A stretch of DNA of 64,000 nucleotides, from contig NC_092035.1 of the NCBI RefSeq assembly GCF_042242105.1, forward strand, positions 11,999,477 to 12,063,476, in the 5' to 3' direction. The position numbers and the translations under genes were made by a program. The stretch comes from Pempheris klunzingeri (Eukaryota; Chordata; Actinopteri; Acropomatiformes; Pempheridae). The notes beneath the pieces were generated by a model that had not been told where the DNA came from, searched no databases, and saw nothing but the letters and a program-made list of their open reading frames with translations. Below, one piece after another: positions 3,776-14,360 of the stretch; the stretch's first letter is position 1, and every line of letters begins with the position of its first letter.

Positions 3776-6738
3776 TCACACTTTGGCCGTTTTAGCCTCA
3801 TTCTTGGGCTTTCCATCTTCATTCTCAGAGGAAGAGGAGGAGGAGGAAGACGAAGAAGAGGAGGAGGAAGAGGAGGAGGAAGAGGATGAATCCTTATTCT
3901 TCTTGGTCTTGGGTTTTTTGTTTTTAGCAGGGCCGTTGCTCGGGGTGATCGGAGCCTCTGCATTGTTGATGGTGCCCTTCACCATTTCAGCAGTGGCATC
4001 CTCGGGGGGGGCTTTGGGAGCAGTGGATTTGTTGGAGGGGGCACTCTCTTGCTTCTCAATGCCTTCTTCTGTCACTACTTCCTGCTGATCTTCAGGCTTT
4101 TGCTGATCTGCAAACAAGATGAATGAGATTTATAAATTAAATGTGTTCACTGCCCTTTTGGCCCTTCAGATATCCGTCAGTCTGTGTGTGATTCTGCTAT
4201 GTTTCCTTTTTTGTGATTGATGTGCTCGTTAAAATCACTGCATGTATGACTCCCATGTAGTGTTAAAAAGTGGTGTGATTGCATGCAATTACAGGGTGCA
4301 GTTTAGTGACACGGCTAGCTTCAAAGGAATCATTTCACATTTTGGGAAATACACTTTTTGCTTTCATCTAAGTGTATTTCCCAAAACTTTTCCCTCCAGA
4401 AGTGACGTGAGGGTTACATTTAAAGTTTAACTCTGCACGCAGTTTTTGTTTCCTGTTAGAAAGGAGCCAATTAGACTGCAGGACCAAACTGAAAGCGTTT
4501 CACTCAGTTACTGATCCAGGTTTTCTTTCTTAGCAGCAGAGATAAACTTTTCGATCAGGCACCAGCACGGACACGCCGAAGTCATGATGATTTCAATTCA
4601 AGATACTTTTTCAGTTTGGATCCAGAACTTACCGCTGTGCAATGCATCTTCTAAAGAAAACTCCAAGCTGTCGGGGAAGAGGAGGATAGATATGCTAGTG
4701 CACCAAGTGGGAAACAGGTATGACATGTTTCTGTGTGTGTTGCAGTGTGTTTATCCACTTAATCACCCTTTAATTCTGCACATTAAAACACCTTAGGAGC
4801 TCATGTTAGGTGGTCACGGTCATTTAATGTGAGCCAATAGGATGCATCTAAAGCTCTGGCATCATGTCTCGTGTCTCTGCCTCACCGCCTCACCTCTCAG
4901 GATCAGCTGTGGTGCCTTGAATCAGCCGCTGGTAGCTATCGATTTCCGCCTCCAGCTTCATCTTGACACACAGCAGGTTGTTGTTGTTTTCGATGTGGCG
5001 CTCCACCTGCGACCTCACCTCCTTCAGCTCCGCCTCCAGGCTGAGGATCACCTGGTTGAGGGGGGCCAGGCGTTGGCCGTACTCCACTTTGCTGCTCTTC
5101 AGGGTTTCCTCCAGATTGTGGATCTGAAAGGATGACAAGGTGATTTTTGGACGGCCATTTCTACTATCTGACTCTGAGCCTTGACCTGATCCAGGTGGCT
5201 GTGAGACACATCGTCTGGCTGAAAGTAGCAGGTTTAGAACATAATGACAGGGCAGTCAGGAATGTTTGTGAAAAGAACAGGTAGACTAACAGCCCGTAGA
5301 CTGTTTTATCATTCCTGACATGGGTCACGGTTAGGGAAAGACTTTGGCAAATATTTTGTTCCACACACCTGCTGAAGAATTGCTTCAACAGTTTCAGGAC
5401 TCTGCTGTGTGTTATGGCAGTGTTACTGTGCTGTACTGGTTACCGTGCTGTGCAGACTCTGGATTTTAATTTCCAGGAATTGTTTCTGTTTGAGCAGATC
5501 CTTGAGATCCGTCTTCCCAGAGTTCAAGACCTCGTTGTTTTGGGCCTCCACCACCTTGATGTTGTCAAACTGGAGAAGGAAAGACAAAATGGGAATGGTG
5601 AGAGAAAGAGGAGGAGAAAAGAGTGCGATCCGACTTAAGGATCCTGCAGGTACCCTACCTTGCTCTGGTACCACTCCTCAGTCTCCTTCAGGTTCCTCTT
5701 GGCTAGTTTATCGTACTCGCCGCGGATCTTGTTGAGAATCTCGGGCAGGTTGGAGTTCTGGGAATCGATCTCCACCTTCACCTCGGAGGCCTTGACCTTC
5801 TCACGCAGGTCATCCACCACCTACAAGAGCCACGGGTAGAAGTTCGCCTTATGATTCCAGTCAATACACCTTGTTCTTAAAGTGTGTGTTTTTGTTTCCA
5901 GTCCCACCTCTTTGTGTTCCCTCTTGAGGCCATCGAGCTCCTCCTTCACCAAGTCGATCTCTTTCTTTGTCTGATCACGGTTCAGCTTGGTATCCTCAAT
6001 GGTCTTCTTCAGGTCCTCCAGGTCTTTTTCTAATTCCTTCCTTGCTTTTTTCTCATCATCCAGCCTGCACAGAGGGGGAGGAACCCAACAATGATCCACA
6101 CGAACACCAGTGACTCTTACTGACTGATATCATCAGGTTATAAATGTTAAACTATTATTTATTCATCTCCCGAGACCCGTTTTTTTACATGCAGGTTGCA
6201 TAAAACTCACTTGTTCTTGAAGTCATCATCAGCCAGTTTGGTGTTATCAATCTGGAGCAGCAGCTTGGCGTTGTCAATGGTGATGTCTTTGATCTACAGA
6301 GAGGAGTGCATGATGTAAATAACCAGTAGTAGTAAGAAAGGAAGAAAGAAAGAAAGAAAGAAGGCCAACCTGCTGCTTGAGGTCCTCCAGGGGTTTCTCA
6401 ACCTCGTCCCAGTCGCGCCCCTCAGGTGCTTTCCTTTTGGCCAAAATCTCATCAATCTGTTTCTGCAGGTCGCCGTTCTCCTCCTCCAGGTGCCTCACCC
6501 TGCCCAGGTAACCGGACAGCCGGTCGTTCAGACCCCGCAGTGTCTGCTTGTCGTCCGCAGGGACGGCTGGAGCGGCCGGAGCGGGGGGTGCGGCAGTTTT
6601 TGCGGGAGCAGCGGGTGCGGAGTCTTTTTCCGTCTCGTTGCGCAGCACGTTCCGCAGCCCCTGCAGGCTCGCCACAGACACCCTGGAGCCCCTTCCCCCG
6701 GCTCCTCCAAACATACTGGCGGCGGTGTTTGAAGGCAT
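3776..6738 (-). CDS. Type I keratin-like intermediate filament protein, acidic polyserine tail
   Basis: Predicted 497 aa from eight exons: 6738-6370, 6293-6211, 6064-5908, 5820-5659, 5569-5444, 5123-4894, 4667-4633 and 4107-3776. Exons 2-5 are 83, 157, 162 and 126 nt, the canonical type I keratin pattern. The head (about 1-65) is rich in Ala and Pro. Coil 1A begins at LNDRLSGYLGRVRHLEEEN. The rod runs to about residue 370 and closes with KLEAEIDSYQRLIQG, a diverged form of the type I helix-termination motif (usually LEXEIATYRXLLEG). The tail reads SLEFSLEDALHSDQQ, then a Lys-rich stretch, about 21 consecutive serines and an acidic/Lys end. The 35-nt seventh exon was chosen because it alone restores frame. 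It should pair with the divergent type II gene at 7105. KRT18-like or thread-keratin gamma-like are the candidate names; orthology is inference. Confidence 0.88.
3826..3893. repeat. GAG/GAA trinucleotide-type tract coding polyserine
   Basis: On the plus strand this is a purine run of GAG, GAA and GAC triplets. On the coding (minus) strand it reads about 21 TCN serine codons in the keratin tail. The mix of TCC, TCT, TCG and TCA codons shows it is not a recent pure expansion. Confidence 0.85.
4340..4386. repeat. Perfect 17-bp inverted repeat inside a keratin intron
   Basis: Arms at 4340-4356 and 4370-4386 are exact reverse complements (TTTTGGGAAATACACTT), with a 13-base loop. It lies in the last intron of the type I keratin gene. 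A similar ATTTTGGGAAAT core occurs near 16258, so it is probably a relic of a dispersed fish repeat. Confidence 0.8.
6336..6364. repeat. (GAAA)n microsatellite
   Basis: Short GAAA/GGAA run in the first intron of the type I keratin gene, just inside the splice donor at 6368-6369 (minus strand). Confidence 0.8.
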
Positions 6739-7104
6739 GACTGCTGCTGGATGGGAGAGACCTGACAGAGACAGAGAGAGCTTCAGACTGATGAATGCCC
6801 TGATGGATGCAGGTGCGTCTTATACCTGGCCTTTACGCATCAATCCGCCCCCAACGATGCCATTGGCCCCCACTCCTGGACAAACCGGTGTGGAGTCGAA
6901 ATTCAAGAACTTCATGTTGACTTTTTTTATTTTTCTCCCTGTAATTTTGTACTTGTCCTGTCTTGATTGGACGCAGGCAGAGGTCTGGGGGGGTGATGGG
7001 TGGTTCTTCTGCACCTTAAAAGCAGGTGATCCGGGGGGCTGCAGGTACCTTCGCCGCTCACCTGGTCAGCTTCAGGATCTCAGCTCGCTGTTCCGCGCTG
7101 CAGC
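6739..7104. promoter_or_regulatory. Shared divergent promoter region of the two keratin genes
   Basis: Only 366 bp separate the two divergent start codons. On the minus strand there is a TATAAG box at 6819-6824, about 80 bp before the ATG, with a CCAAT box at 6861-6866 roughly 40 bp further upstream. For the plus-strand gene a CTTAAAAG TATA-like element lies near 7015-7022, about 85 bp before its ATG. Elements were identified by eye; co-regulation of the pair is inferred. Confidence 0.6.
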
Positions 7105-10054
7105 ATGTCCAAACCGAGAGATTACAGCAGCCAGTCCTTCTCCCCCAGCGGGACAGGACCGGCCAAGAGCTACCCCACCAACAACAAGGTGGATCCGTCA
7201 GGCAAGTCCAGGGAGAAGGACGACATGGTGGGACTCAATGACAAGTTTGTCAGGTTGATTGACAAGGTTTGTTAATTACATTCTTCTTATTATTATTATT
7301 ATTATTATTATTATTGTTATTATCATTATTATTATTATCATTACTACTACTACTTGATCTAACAGTTCTCTTAAATTAATTAATTGGTTAATTACTATAT
7401 AAATACTATTGATTATAGCTTATTTGCCATTCTTCAATTAAGCAGGAAAAAGACTTAAGATGGACTTATAGATAGATAGATAGATTCAGTTAAGCACCAT
7501 TAAAGGATATTCAGAACAACTTCATACTGGTCCTGGGGCATGACTTCTAAAAGGCTCTGACTGCTGTGAATAATTCTGTGACTTGAGGCCATGAAAAGTG
7601 TCTCCTTGTTTAGGCTTTGAGTCATGTAGTCTAAAGATGGGTGGAGGTGCATGTAGGACGCCACCTTGTGGACAATGAGGTGTGTCTCTGTCTCAGGTGA
7701 AACACCTGGAGGATGAGAACAAAAAGCTGGACACCAAACTGAAGATCCTCAAGGATCAGGAGGGCTACGAGGGGAAAATCAACGACATCGTGAAGCAGCT
7801 GGAGAACGAGATGGAGCAGCAGATCGAGAACTTGATCCGTGACCAGGAAAAACTGCAGGCCGAGCTGCTCAAGAAGCAGGACGACGTTAAGGACACCAAG
7901 AGGAGGTCAGCAGGGCTTTAAATAAAAAAAACCAAGAGTGTGCACACATAGAGGGTGTTCGATTTGGGTAAGAATGTGTTACATGAAGGTAACTTATGAT
8001 AAATAAAATTCCATTGGTTTCAGCTATGAGGATGAACTTAAACAGAAATCTGAACTGGAGAACGAGTTTATCCTCACCAAAAAGGTACTGTTGAGCTTTT
8101 TATCCTAATTAATTATTTGACCATTTAGAACTCTCATAAATCAAAGTTTTATGAAATCTGCGCATGTTTAATGTGTGTGTGTGCAATAGGAAGTGGATGA
8201 GGGTCACTTGGAGGCAGTAGATCTGGCTCTGGAGCTGGAGGACCTGGTTGGAAAACTGGATTTCCTCAGGGTTGGCTATGATGAGGTAATAATGGAGTTT
8301 ATGTTATTTGTTTTGTTCTCTCCTTTATTTTTTGTGGTTTCCAGGTGATACAATGAAAGACTATGGAGAAGCGCAACTGATTTTTAAAAAAATTCCAAAA
8401 GATTTATCCCCTTAATGTGCTGATGTGTAGGAAAAGGGAAACAAGAAAGAATTGGAGTGATGCTGATGTGTAGTAAAGGGCTTTTTTTTTACCCCACTAA
8501 CTCTGTTGTGATCATGTCTGCCCCCTGCAGGAAATCAAGGAGCTGGAGTCGCAAGTCCAGAATGAAAACGTGATCTTACGTGACAACAGCAAGCGGTCTC
8601 TGGACATGGACGAGATCGTGGAGAGTGTCAAGAGACAATACACCGACATGGCTGCCCGCACCAGGGAGGAAGCTGAGCAGTGGAACCAGAAAAAGGTGAA
8701 GAGAAAAAGGGTTATTTTTCACCCCAATACTACTGAGGACAATCAAAAGCATGACTAAAGCATGTATTCTCCACATTTTCACCCCCTTAGATGAATGCCA
8801 TGGTCCTGAACGCAGGACAGCGTGAGCAGGAAGTGCGTGATTTAAAGCGTGACATCTCAGATATGATGCGCCTCATCCAGAGGCTCAAGGGGGACCTGGA
8901 GGCTCTCTTGAGGAAGGTCGGGCTCACACAGATAGACACTCCCAGAGTTCAGGCCTAGACACACCCACTGCCCATCCAACTGGCCTCTGATCTCTCTGTT
9001 CTCTTGTCAGGAAGAGGCCCTGAAGAAGGAAATCAGTGACGTGAGGGCAGAAGGTGAAGAAAACCTGGAGAAGGCCCGGGAGGACATCACCCAGCTGGAG
9101 GAGGCCTTGAGGCGGGCCAAGCAGGACTTGGCCGGGCAGATCCGCGACTACCACGAGCTGATGAACCTCAAACTGGCGCTGGACATTGAGATCGCCACCT
9201 ACCGCAAGCTGCTGGAGGGCGAGGAGCAGAGGTATGTGAGCAGAGGGGAATAGATTCTGGGGTGAGAGCACAGCAATAAGTATGATCTGTTTGTTAAAAT
9301 ACACCATGATGCATTAATGCGTGCACTAACAACTGTCTCTGCTTCTTCTCGGCAAAGAATGAACCACCTCATGCACAACGCAGGTGAGAACAGTTTTGTT
9401 AGGCTACTGTTTTCTGATATTTCTGATATTAGCCAGCCTAGAAACTGCTGACACTTCTGGGTTCACTAGGTCGCTTTGTGGTCTATTTGACGTCTCTCCA
9501 CTCATATCTGACAACTAGAAAGATGTCATATTTTCAGAACAGCTGTAGCTCGATGAAATGATTGGTTTCCCCCCTTGTTTAATGTGAATCATTTTCAGAA
9601 TTGAAATCATCCAGAAATTCACAAGAAAAAAGCTAAATTTAAAAGAAAGAAATCCTAAAAATCAAGACTACTTTGAGCCCCTTTGGACTTGTCTTGTGGT
9701 CCCCAACCAGACCCCCAGGTTGGGTCTAAAGCATTGATACATTTCGTCCAATTTTTACACCAATAACATTCTAAAGACTGATTGATGTTTTGTGTCTGAC
9801 TAAAATCAAACCTCTCTTTCGCTCAGATTTCTAAAAACAAACCAAACAATCCAAGTCCTTACTTGCACGCAGACGTTCACTTGCCACCGAAGAAACCCCT
9901 GCCAGAGAAGCCACGAGCCCCAGAACCCACCGTCGCCCTACGGGACACCTTTATCTCGCCAGAGTACCCCCAATCCAAGAAACGCCTGCTGATCCGGGTG
10001 GAAGTGGAGGCGGGCAGAGTCGTGTCCGAAAGCTCCCATTACACTGAGGACTGA
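7105..10054 (+). CDS. Type II keratin-like intermediate filament protein
   Basis: Predicted 415 aa from nine exons: 7105-7266, 7697-7905, 8024-8084, 8190-8285, 8531-8695, 8791-8916, 9011-9231, 9358-9383 and 9873-10054. Exons 2-7 are 209, 61, 96, 165, 126 and 221 nt, the canonical type II keratin layout. The head is very short (about 43 residues, starting MSKPRDYSS) and lacks glycine loops. Coil 1A starts [20 protein letters not shown] and the rod ends [20 protein letters not shown], a near-perfect termination motif. The tail is Pro/Lys-rich and ends [18 protein letters not shown], which resembles the tail box of vimentin, desmin and K8. The acceptor at 9873 is preferred over a stronger-looking one at 9827 because only it keeps frame with exon 8. 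It probably partners the divergent type I gene. KRT8-like or thread-keratin alpha-like; orthology not settled. Confidence 0.88.
7282..7353. repeat. (TTA)n microsatellite
   Basis: Imperfect ATT/TTA trinucleotide run in the first intron of the type II keratin gene. Confidence 0.9.
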
Positions 10055-10844: not shown

Positions 10845-11300
10845 CTCATAGACCATACATGTATGGTAAATATTTACCAGCTGGAGCTTAGCTTAGCATG
10901 AAGCCCAGAAAGAAGGAAGGCGGTTAGGTTAGCTTAGCATAAAGCCTTAATAGAGAGAGGACAGTTAGCCTAGCTTAGCATAAAGCCTGAAAGAGGGAAA
11001 ACAGTTTGCTTAGTTTAGCATAGACTTTGGAAAGAGGGAGAACAGTTAGCTTAGCATAAAGCTTGGAAATAGGGGGAAACAGCTAGCTTGCTCTGCCCAA
11101 AGGTGCTATAAACCCTAGTTATAACCATAGTATATCTTGTTTAACAAAGTGTTCGCATCACTATTCATCACAGAAAAGGGATGGTTTTATATCTCCATTT
11201 TTGTACAGATTAAAAAACCAAGACAACCTGTTTAAATGTTAAGCTAAGCTAACAGGGTGCTAGCTCCAGCTACATTTAACTAGAGACAAAACAGCAAGTG
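10845..11300. repeat. Dispersed fish repeat with about five 40-bp tandem units
   Basis: The core TTAGCTTAGCATAAAGCC recurs with a period near 40 bp from about 10887 to 11095, each unit ending in a GAAAGAGGGAAAACAG-like stretch. An inverted form lies near 11241-11275 (TAAGCTAAGCTAAC, then GCTAGCTCCAGC). The same core occurs at 16306-16345. I recognise it as a common interspersed percomorph repeat; its transposon class is not determinable here. Confidence 0.7.
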
Positions 11301-12402: not shown

Positions 12403-13431
12403 TCAGACTGCCACCTCCTCTGATCCGTGCGTCCTTCGCCTCCATCTGTCTCGGAGTTTCTGGAGAAGTTTGTACGCAGGCTCTGTGTACTGCCTGTTCG
12501 CCAGGCCGAGCACCAGCGGCACTACCGCCATGCTTCCAATGCCAGTGCACGACAGCACAATGTGAGTGGTGGAGCTCCACTTGGTGTCGCTGATCAAGAA
12601 CGCTATGCAGACGTGCATGTAAATGAGGTAGGGAACCCAGCATGCAAGAAAGGTCAGCGACACCGCCACCACGCAGCGAGTGTACCGCAGGTTCAGCCTC
12701 TGCTCTCGGTCCGAGGCCTGACTTCCCCGCTCCACTGAACGATGGAGACGACAAATGTCCTTCAGCTGGCCTCGGGTGATCCACAAAACTCGTCCAGTCA
12801 TGCCAGCGATGGTAAGAATAGCAGGTAAGACAAGTCCATACACCTCCAAGTAGATAAAAGCATTGGGGAACACGCGCCTGTATGAGCAGCACGTGGTTCC
12901 GTTTGTTGAACAATTTGAAAGTGCTGTTGTGTTTTGGTTATTTGCACAACAGCCATTCCAATCTGGCCCTGTCCAGTTATTCCACCCAAAAGCAGGTAGA
13001 GATGCATAAAGAAGAGGTGGAGTCCACACCACAAGCAGCGCTAGGGGAAAGCTGCGGTGCATCCACAAGTTATTGTAATGCAAGGGGTCGACGATGCAAA
13101 TGTAGCGCTCGTAGTGCACCATTACCAGGTTGAAAAGGAACGCCAGGAAGAGGAAGTTTGGGAAAATGTGAGCCACCATGCAGGAGCTGAAACTCAACTC
13201 CCGGTTCACACCCATTAACGGTATGAAAGGCAGCGCCACGCCCGTGCACAAATCTGCCACCAGCAGGCTGAGGAAGAAGTAGTTGGGCGTGTTGTGGAGC
13301 TGGCGGTTCCAGGCGATGCCCAAGATGATGAAGAGGTTGGCCAGGATGATGGAGGTCGACAGTGGAATGGTGATGGCATAGATGAGCTGCTCCCCAGACA
13401 GCAGAGCATGGGAGACGTTGCAGTCCATCAT
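12403..13431 (-). CDS. gpbar1: G-protein coupled bile acid receptor 1 (TGR5)
   Basis: A rhodopsin-class GPCR of the plasma membrane, known to bind bile acids and raise cAMP through Gs. The 342-aa single-exon reading frame has seven hydrophobic segments. Family landmarks shared with human GPBAR1 are LGIAWNRQL after TM1, HYERY at the end of TM3 (in place of DRY), LPAFGWNNW before ECL2, LEVYGLVLPA in TM5, QLKDICRLHRSV in ICL3 and LGLANRQYTEPA after TM7. ECL2 is expanded and carries four N-X-S/T sequons. Adjacent ATGs at 13431 and 13428 are both possible starts; the second has the better Kozak context (A at -3, G at +4). A splice acceptor (CTCTTCCCTGCAG) just before 13496 implies an upstream, probably non-coding, exon. 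An N-terminal extension from that exon cannot be excluded. Its position next to arpc2 and aamp matches human 2q35. Confidence 0.95.
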   Translation of the reverse strand: MMDCNVSHALLSGEQLIYAITIPLSTSIILANLFIILGIAWNRQLHNTPNYFFLSLLVADLCTGVALPFIPLMGVNRELSFSSCMVAHIFPNFLFLAFLFNLVMVHYERYICIVDPLHYNNLWMHRSFPLALLVVWTPPLLYASLPAFGWNNWTGPDWNGCCANNQNTTALSNCSTNGTTCCSYRRVFPNAFIYLEVYGLVLPAILTIAGMTGRVLWITRGQLKDICRLHRSVERGSQASDREQRLNLRYTRCVVAVSLTFLACWVPYLIYMHVCIAFLISDTKWSSTTHIVLSCTGIGSMAVVPLVLGLANRQYTEPAYKLLQKLRDRWRRRTHGSEEVAV

Positions 13432-13496
13432 GGGTGAAATCTGAAGACTTCCCTCGATTTGCAGCCCGGCTCCACTCCCATCAAGGTCCAGCTCCC

Positions 13497-14360
13497 CTGC
13501 AGGGAAGAGACACACTGTTAGAGTAGAAGCACTGAGTAAAGGTGGTGGGTGGTACGATAACTGAGGGTAAGCTGAGAGATCGATGAATAAGAGCTACGTG
13601 TATCATATCAAGTGAGCAGAGAGTTTTTGCTGACCTATTTCCTGAACATTTAGCTTGTTATTATTGCTCAGCAAGCATAGACTACAGACTTGGAGAACCT
13701 TGCAAATGCAATTGAGCGGAGAGAAATGGGATTCAGTAGAAAATGTAGCAGGCGGTGCAGCAGAGTGGATTATCAGAAATGGATTGAAAGAGATGAGAAA
13801 CTGTGAAGCTCAGAACGGAGAACTTCACATATTCAGGCGGATGAACATGTCATGGGTTGAAAAAAAGATCTCCAGGCACTTGATACCCAATTAAAGTTAA
13901 TAAAAAGTACAATCTCATTGTCTTGTCATGCTACTATCACTGGGAATAAGAGAAGCTCTCATTGAAATGCCTTCCAACTTTAACTTCATCATCTGGAGCA
14001 GCATTTCTTTTCTATCTATTGCAGAACCACTGAAACAAATTCATCCCCTTGTTAGCGAGGAGCCGAGATAAGAGCACATGTTCCTGGACGTGAGGCCGTT
14101 GTCACTCAATAATTCATCAGCCGGGACTCTGGAGTTACACCCTGCTTTGTACCTGTTATACTAGAAAGTGATACATGTGCTGCGGATAATTAAGGGAGTC
14201 TCACTTTATTTTTCAAACAAATCAGCTTATGGTCAAGGGGAAAATAGATTTTACACATAGTTTTATGTCTGTATGCTTTATGTTTGGGCTTTATTGTGTC
14301 TGTTTATGTGAGTCAATAGATAGATTTAGCGAACTGTGTAACAATCCTTCATTTCCACGT
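13497..14360. other. Upstream flank or first intron of gpbar1
   Basis: Non-coding sequence upstream of the splice acceptor of the gpbar1 coding exon. It probably holds the 5' UTR exon and promoter, but no convincing promoter element was seen. Confidence 0.4.

Follow-up and report, generated by a model that had tools for sequence, protein, structure and literature searches.

Keratins function only as type I/type II pairs, and the human genes for K8 and K18 are neighbours; K19, a type I keratin, is tail-less. In human and mouse the genes of the two types are described as lying in separate clusters, with KRT18 the exception (PMC8733776, in excerpt), so that gene position does not explain how the two partners are kept in balance in these species. 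The mammalian corneal pair K3/K12, a type I/type II pair of the corneal epithelium, has PAX6 among its listed regulators (PMC10052683, in excerpt). For zebrafish, the available excerpts describe zgc:92380 as a gene of the epithelial layer of the adult cornea, whose level there exceeds that in dermis 14.56-fold and whose expression disappears in pax6b mutants (PMC4334901); it is likewise missing upon loss of Pax6a/b (PMC7323998), and in the corneal epithelium it is co-expressed with krt4 (PMC10079958).

We analysed a 64,000-nucleotide stretch of DNA (the window) from the percomorph fish Pempheris klunzingeri, in which one keratin gene of type I and one of type II are arranged head to head. Our preferred reading, to which we assign a probability of about one half, is that the two genes encode the partners of one surface-epithelium filament, most probably that of the cornea, under a likely shared promoter.

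Organization of the keratin locus

The type I gene occupies positions 3776–6738 of the minus strand and comprises eight coding exons (6738–6370, 6293–6211, 6064–5908, 5820–5659, 5569–5444, 5123–4894, 4667–4633 and 4107–3776) that encode a long form of 497 aa. The type II gene lies at 7105–10054 on the plus strand, and its nine coding exons (7105–7266, 7697–7905, 8024–8084, 8190–8285, 8531–8695, 8791–8916, 9011–9231, 9358–9383 and 9873–10054) encode a long form of 415 aa, a model that full-length relatives also support. Both genes are intact, with GT-AG junctions throughout, and both proteins carry a full intermediate filament rod, matching the Pfam Filament domain (PF00038) with 240 bits for type II and 230 bits for type I at a cut-off of 40; the type I query used here and in the search for relatives was without the 12 residues of exon 7.

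The original prediction had placed the two genes head to head between arpc2 and gpbar1 and had described the heads of their products as short and free of glycine loops. The pair, its place and the short heads were borne out, and glycine is scarce. The ATGs, at 6738 (−) and 7105 (+), have 366 bp between them, the heads measure 61 residues in type I and 33 in type II, and glycine accounts for 4.0% and 3.6% of the whole proteins, respectively. On one side, the 3' end of arpc2 (117–2525, +) matches ARPC2 of the Arp2/3 complex in the PDB (E 1.9e-44); on the other, gpbar1 (12403–13512, −, start codon approximate) has the bile acid receptor GPBAR1 as its best PDB match (E 4e-52). Type II keratins usually, though not by definition, have a higher pI than their type I partners; here the pI of the type II protein is 5.12 against 5.30 for type I, and with skate K8 at 5.66 and 5.69 the type II proteins of this branch are acidic too.

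Several repeats accompany the pair. An imperfect triplet array at 3828–3886 (−), located by repeat scan and translation, encodes a poly-serine run in the type I tail; relatives differ in it, and it may also vary within the species. Intron 1 of the type II gene holds a TTA triplet array (7287–7343), and between that gene and gpbar1 there is a tandem array of a 41-bp unit (10885–11055; about four copies, 75% matches, theme TTAGCATAAAG). A Pfam search with 10 of the 23 frames of at least 130 aa between 14000 and 64000 gave no match, and Rfam and tRNA scans of the 64-kb window returned nothing.

Tail-less forms of both proteins

Exon 7 of the type I gene (4633–4667, −) is 35 bp long (SLEFSLEDALHS), as supported by the gene model, by the NCBI protein P0121 and by relatives; lengths of 18 or 15 bp were ruled out by those relatives, which show the 35-bp exon. 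When exon 7 is skipped the reading frame shifts in the last exon and stops after RSAKA, giving a form of 380 aa that has no tail and is 100% identical to P0121, which is itself from Pempheris klunzingeri. The type II gene offers two starts for its last exon, the alternative one being at 9827–9832 (+). With the acceptor before 9827 the protein ends in DF-stop at 357 aa, and this tail-less form is 100% identical to the Pempheris klunzingeri NCBI protein P0001; with the acceptor before 9873 it gains a 60-residue tail that ends at 10054 and whose end resembles the aligned ends of K8 and vimentin. A single acceptor for this exon was ruled out, since 9827 alone would leave the protein without the conserved tail.

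Relatives were counted among the best 120 of 3,106 matches for type II and the best 120 of 242 for type I. By simple patterns, the short end is present in 52 of the 120 type II relatives and the long tail in 53, the remaining 15 having neither; for type I, 36/120 have an RSAKA-like end and 74/120 are shorter than 400 aa. Several short forms, among them P0049 (357 aa, on 1,231 bp) and P0195 (384 aa, on 1,412 bp), lie on contigs too small for the introns and are for that reason read as transcripts, the others being gene predictions. As judged from the gene models and the matching proteins, tail loss in both partners is brought about by alternative splicing. Because the early stop falls within the last exon in both genes, the resulting mRNAs should escape decay. 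K19 is comparable in being a keratin without a tail, but at this locus the tail is lost by alternative splicing and in both partners.

Helix-termination motif: lost in type I, kept in type II

Few stretches of intermediate filament proteins are as well conserved as the helix-termination motif. LLEGE was replaced as the test motif by Y..LL(E/D), since K18 itself reads LLEDGE. The latter pattern is kept in 121/121 type II proteins (the locus protein and the best 120 of 3,106 matches) and is present in 0/121 of type I (the locus protein and the best 120 of 242), the locus type I protein reading YQRLIQG at this position; a looser pattern recovers 2/121, both from killifish (P0219, P0222). The thread keratins TK gamma (10/10) and TK alpha (13/15) have Y..LL(E/D), as do both cat-family type I keratins. 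Loss of the motif is old, given that it is common to salmonids too.

The motif is usual in type I keratins and does not define them; membership rests on descent. The tail-less type I protein, modelled with AlphaFold from its single sequence (mean pLDDT 71.6), still has the usual keratin coils 1A, 1B and 2. That one partner has lost the motif and the other has kept it raises the question of how the filament assembles.

Phylogenetic placement of the two proteins

The original prediction favoured a reading of the pair as thread keratins of the alpha/gamma lineage. We built a tree of 45 proteins that comprised TK gamma (4, hagfish only), TK alpha (9, from hagfish, lamprey and teleosts), vimentin, K8 (3, one of them human), other type I keratins (3, one of them human) and the two locus lineages (type I 14, type II 11). 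The K8/K18 references in our trees are few, namely two skate K8 sequences and one human sequence each for K8 and K18, the human ones being supplied from outside the sequence databases; the trees did not include epidermal keratins of fishes. Each locus lineage forms one teleost clade of its own (100/100). The type I lineage joins the other type I sequences to the exclusion of TK gamma, and the type II lineage joins K8 to the exclusion of TK alpha (100/99 in each case). Forcing type I together with TK gamma was rejected by the AU test (p-AU 0.009), as was, more weakly, forcing type II together with TK alpha (p-AU 0.041), and holding type I with the human K18 sequence brought a gain in likelihood.

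A repeat tree was run without the human K8 and K18 sequences, with stricter columns and with four more thread-keratin sequences (12 TK alpha, 5 TK gamma). Here type II grouped with K8 at 98/95 and type I with the type I sequences at 99/97, the latter carrying a warning of long branches between the cat-family type I sequences and locus type I; thread-keratin placement was again rejected, with p 0.024 for type I and 0.048, which is only just significant, for type II. The stems of the two lineages measure 0.79 and 0.74 changes per column.

With both proteins outside the TK clades and AU rejection in two runs, the thread-keratin reading was not sustained, and on these trees the pair is not a thread-keratin pair. 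Grouping with KRT8/KRT18, which the original prediction had named as evidence against itself, was largely what the trees returned, qualified by the long, separate teleost branches on which the locus proteins stand. K8 and K18 form the nearest branch, and the locus proteins may or may not be K8 and K18 proper. By descent and by their intermediate filament rod both proteins are, on sequence evidence, keratins, and the parentage of the pair may lie in the K8/K18 pair or in an older split. It follows from the tree that fish genes annotated as K8-like, ON3-like and K18 form lineages of their own.

The teleost TK alpha proteins (P0260 and P0262–P0265) are from eel, catfish, salmon and carp.

Linkage across fishes

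In 45 of 46 species, Pempheris klunzingeri counted, both genes are found on contigs of equal length among the matches listed. Equal length in bp serves here as a stand-in for the same contig, and the value given is for the longest contig of each 90% cluster. Lampris, Myripristis and Stegastes belong to this set, the Stegastes contig being only 58,460 bp long. The exception is Menidia, for which two different contig sizes are listed, perhaps from two assemblies. Consecutive locus tags were found in Scortum (L3Q82_009823/009824) and Pampus (PAMP_016435/016436). Type I relatives also occur in salmonids and smelts among the best 120 of 242 matches.

The head-to-head orientation was read in the Pempheris klunzingeri genome only. 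The keratin pair is real and conserved among fishes, and a literature search found no description of a keratin pair between arpc2 and gpbar1 among the matches listed.

The interval between the two start codons

The 366-bp gap between the ATGs (6739–7104) is a likely shared promoter region, its length lying within the start distance of less than 1 kb that characterizes divergent pairs with a bidirectional promoter. We tried 13 motif patterns in it, some of which were composed only once its letters were known. Each of the two genes has a TATA-like box oriented towards it: TATAAG at 6819–6824 (−) faces type I, with 0.46 expected in mononucleotide shuffles, and TTAAAAG at 7016–7022 (+) faces type II, with 0.04 expected for a pattern that was written after sequence reading. 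Between them stand two CCAAT boxes (6862–6866, −, and 6966–6970), where 0.66 were expected.

Beside the type I TATA-like box lies a PAX6 paired-domain-like site, TTTACGCATCAAT (6832–6844, +), which differs at one base from TTCACGCWTSANT, the PAX6 paired-domain consensus. Across the 64 kb such matches are at chance level, with 2 found against 1.45 expected, and a match in a stretch of 366 bp has a probability of about 0.8% before correction for several motifs. When two mismatches were allowed, the 64 kb contained 19 matches against 21.62 expected, and a longer PAX6 consensus gave 9 against 11.53; the 366-bp gap does not contain the strict core TTCACGC. With 13 patterns tried, some of them composed after reading, the PAX6-like site is a lead, not proof. 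A promoter shared by both genes is plausible.

A putative link to the cornea

Two type I relatives among the best 120 of 242 matches, P0227 and P0233, bear the UniProt name Zgc:92380. Under the same naming scheme hagfish TK gamma is Zgc:136930 and TK alpha is Si:dkey-183i3.5, and the name Zgc:136930 is on 0/120 of the listed type I relatives (best 120 of 242). By these database names the type I gene is predicted to be the counterpart of zebrafish zgc:92380. The zebrafish gene differs from the locus as described, since in the available portions of the literature it is a lone marker gene, and a type II neighbour, a tail-less form and motif loss go unmentioned there; the zebrafish keratin catalogue (PMC6778804), too, does not mention it in its main text.

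The link from locus to cornea rests on the database name and the zebrafish papers. Because zgc:136930, a TK gamma gene, is in the same pax6b list (PMC4334901, in excerpt), dependence on pax6b is not specific to the type I branch of the locus, and K8 and K18a.1 are expressed in the zebrafish cornea as well (PMC11394277, in excerpt). As excerpted, the zebrafish catalogue gives krt4 as a type II keratin, and krt4 could be the partner of zgc:92380 in that species. The head-to-head type II partner may be absent in zebrafish, given that the zebrafish keratin lists, in the parts available, hold few type II genes, six or three.

Interpretation of the keratin pair

That the pair represents the thread keratins TK alpha and TK gamma, which in fish likewise combine one keratin of each type, would suit a head-to-head type I/type II arrangement with short heads, and teleosts are known to have thread-keratin relatives (PMC10005773 and PMC6778804, in excerpt). 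We nevertheless regard this as very improbable, since both trees and both sets of AU tests exclude the two proteins from the TK clades, hagfish TK alpha is joined in the 45-protein tree by the TK alpha proteins of salmon, carp, catfish and eel, and two type I relatives carry the name Zgc:92380. Composition points the same way: glycine makes up 15.6% of a hagfish TK gamma and 18.8% of a salmon TK alpha, the ends of hagfish and salmon thread keratins being rich in it, and both locus proteins are poor in glycine. A more serious contender, possible though on balance unlikely, is that the two genes are a duplicate of the K8/K18 pair that evolves fast yet keeps a general role in simple epithelia, with nothing specific to the cornea. 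The gain in likelihood when type I is held with the human K18 and the grouping of type II with K8 at 98/95 are consistent with it, annotators name the relatives K18 and K8-like or ON3-like, and the adjacency of human KRT8 and KRT18 would fit such an origin. The long stems, the loss of the motif in type I and the activity of the zebrafish counterpart gene in the cornea argue instead for specialization, and the tail-less splice forms are a further difference from K8/K18.

The two genes could also be neighbours by descent only, each with its own promoter and with other partners, krt4 for type I being an example, and under no shared control. One TATA-like box facing each gene would agree with this, as would the co-expression of krt4 with zgc:92380 in zebrafish cornea; the equal-size contigs in 45 of 46 species among the matches listed and a gap here of only 366 bp speak against it, and we consider it distinctly doubtful.

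Under the preferred reading, that of a single surface-epithelium filament, the type I and type II proteins would pair with each other, as keratin biology leads one to expect, and the type II gene would be expressed in the same cells as type I. PAX6 would act on both genes by way of the PAX6-like site between the start codons, and one control region would serve both partners of the corneal filament. The head-to-head arrangement with its 366-bp gap makes the proposal testable in one reporter. A stronger version, which we put forward tentatively and think rather unlikely, is that the pair gives spiny-rayed fishes a self-contained cassette for a corneal filament, in which one PAX6-driven bidirectional promoter would balance the two partners of an unusual filament, marked by motif loss in type I and by optional tail-less halves. 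Such a cassette would be a fish counterpart of K3/K12, reached independently; the likeness to K3/K12 is by description, and the mammalian pair differs in that type I and type II genes lie apart in human and mouse. Were the cassette real, the tail-less halves and the loss of the motif might perhaps be a route to a fine, transparent network.

Two groups of database records among the relatives deserve mention. P0074, P0120, P0188 and P0231 are relatives of both keratins on contigs of less than 2 kb from a JGI source, and perhaps represent fish transcripts shed into the environment. P0095 is a tilapia keratin that one source files under Mustela putorius (ferret), likely a mislabelled or contaminated record.
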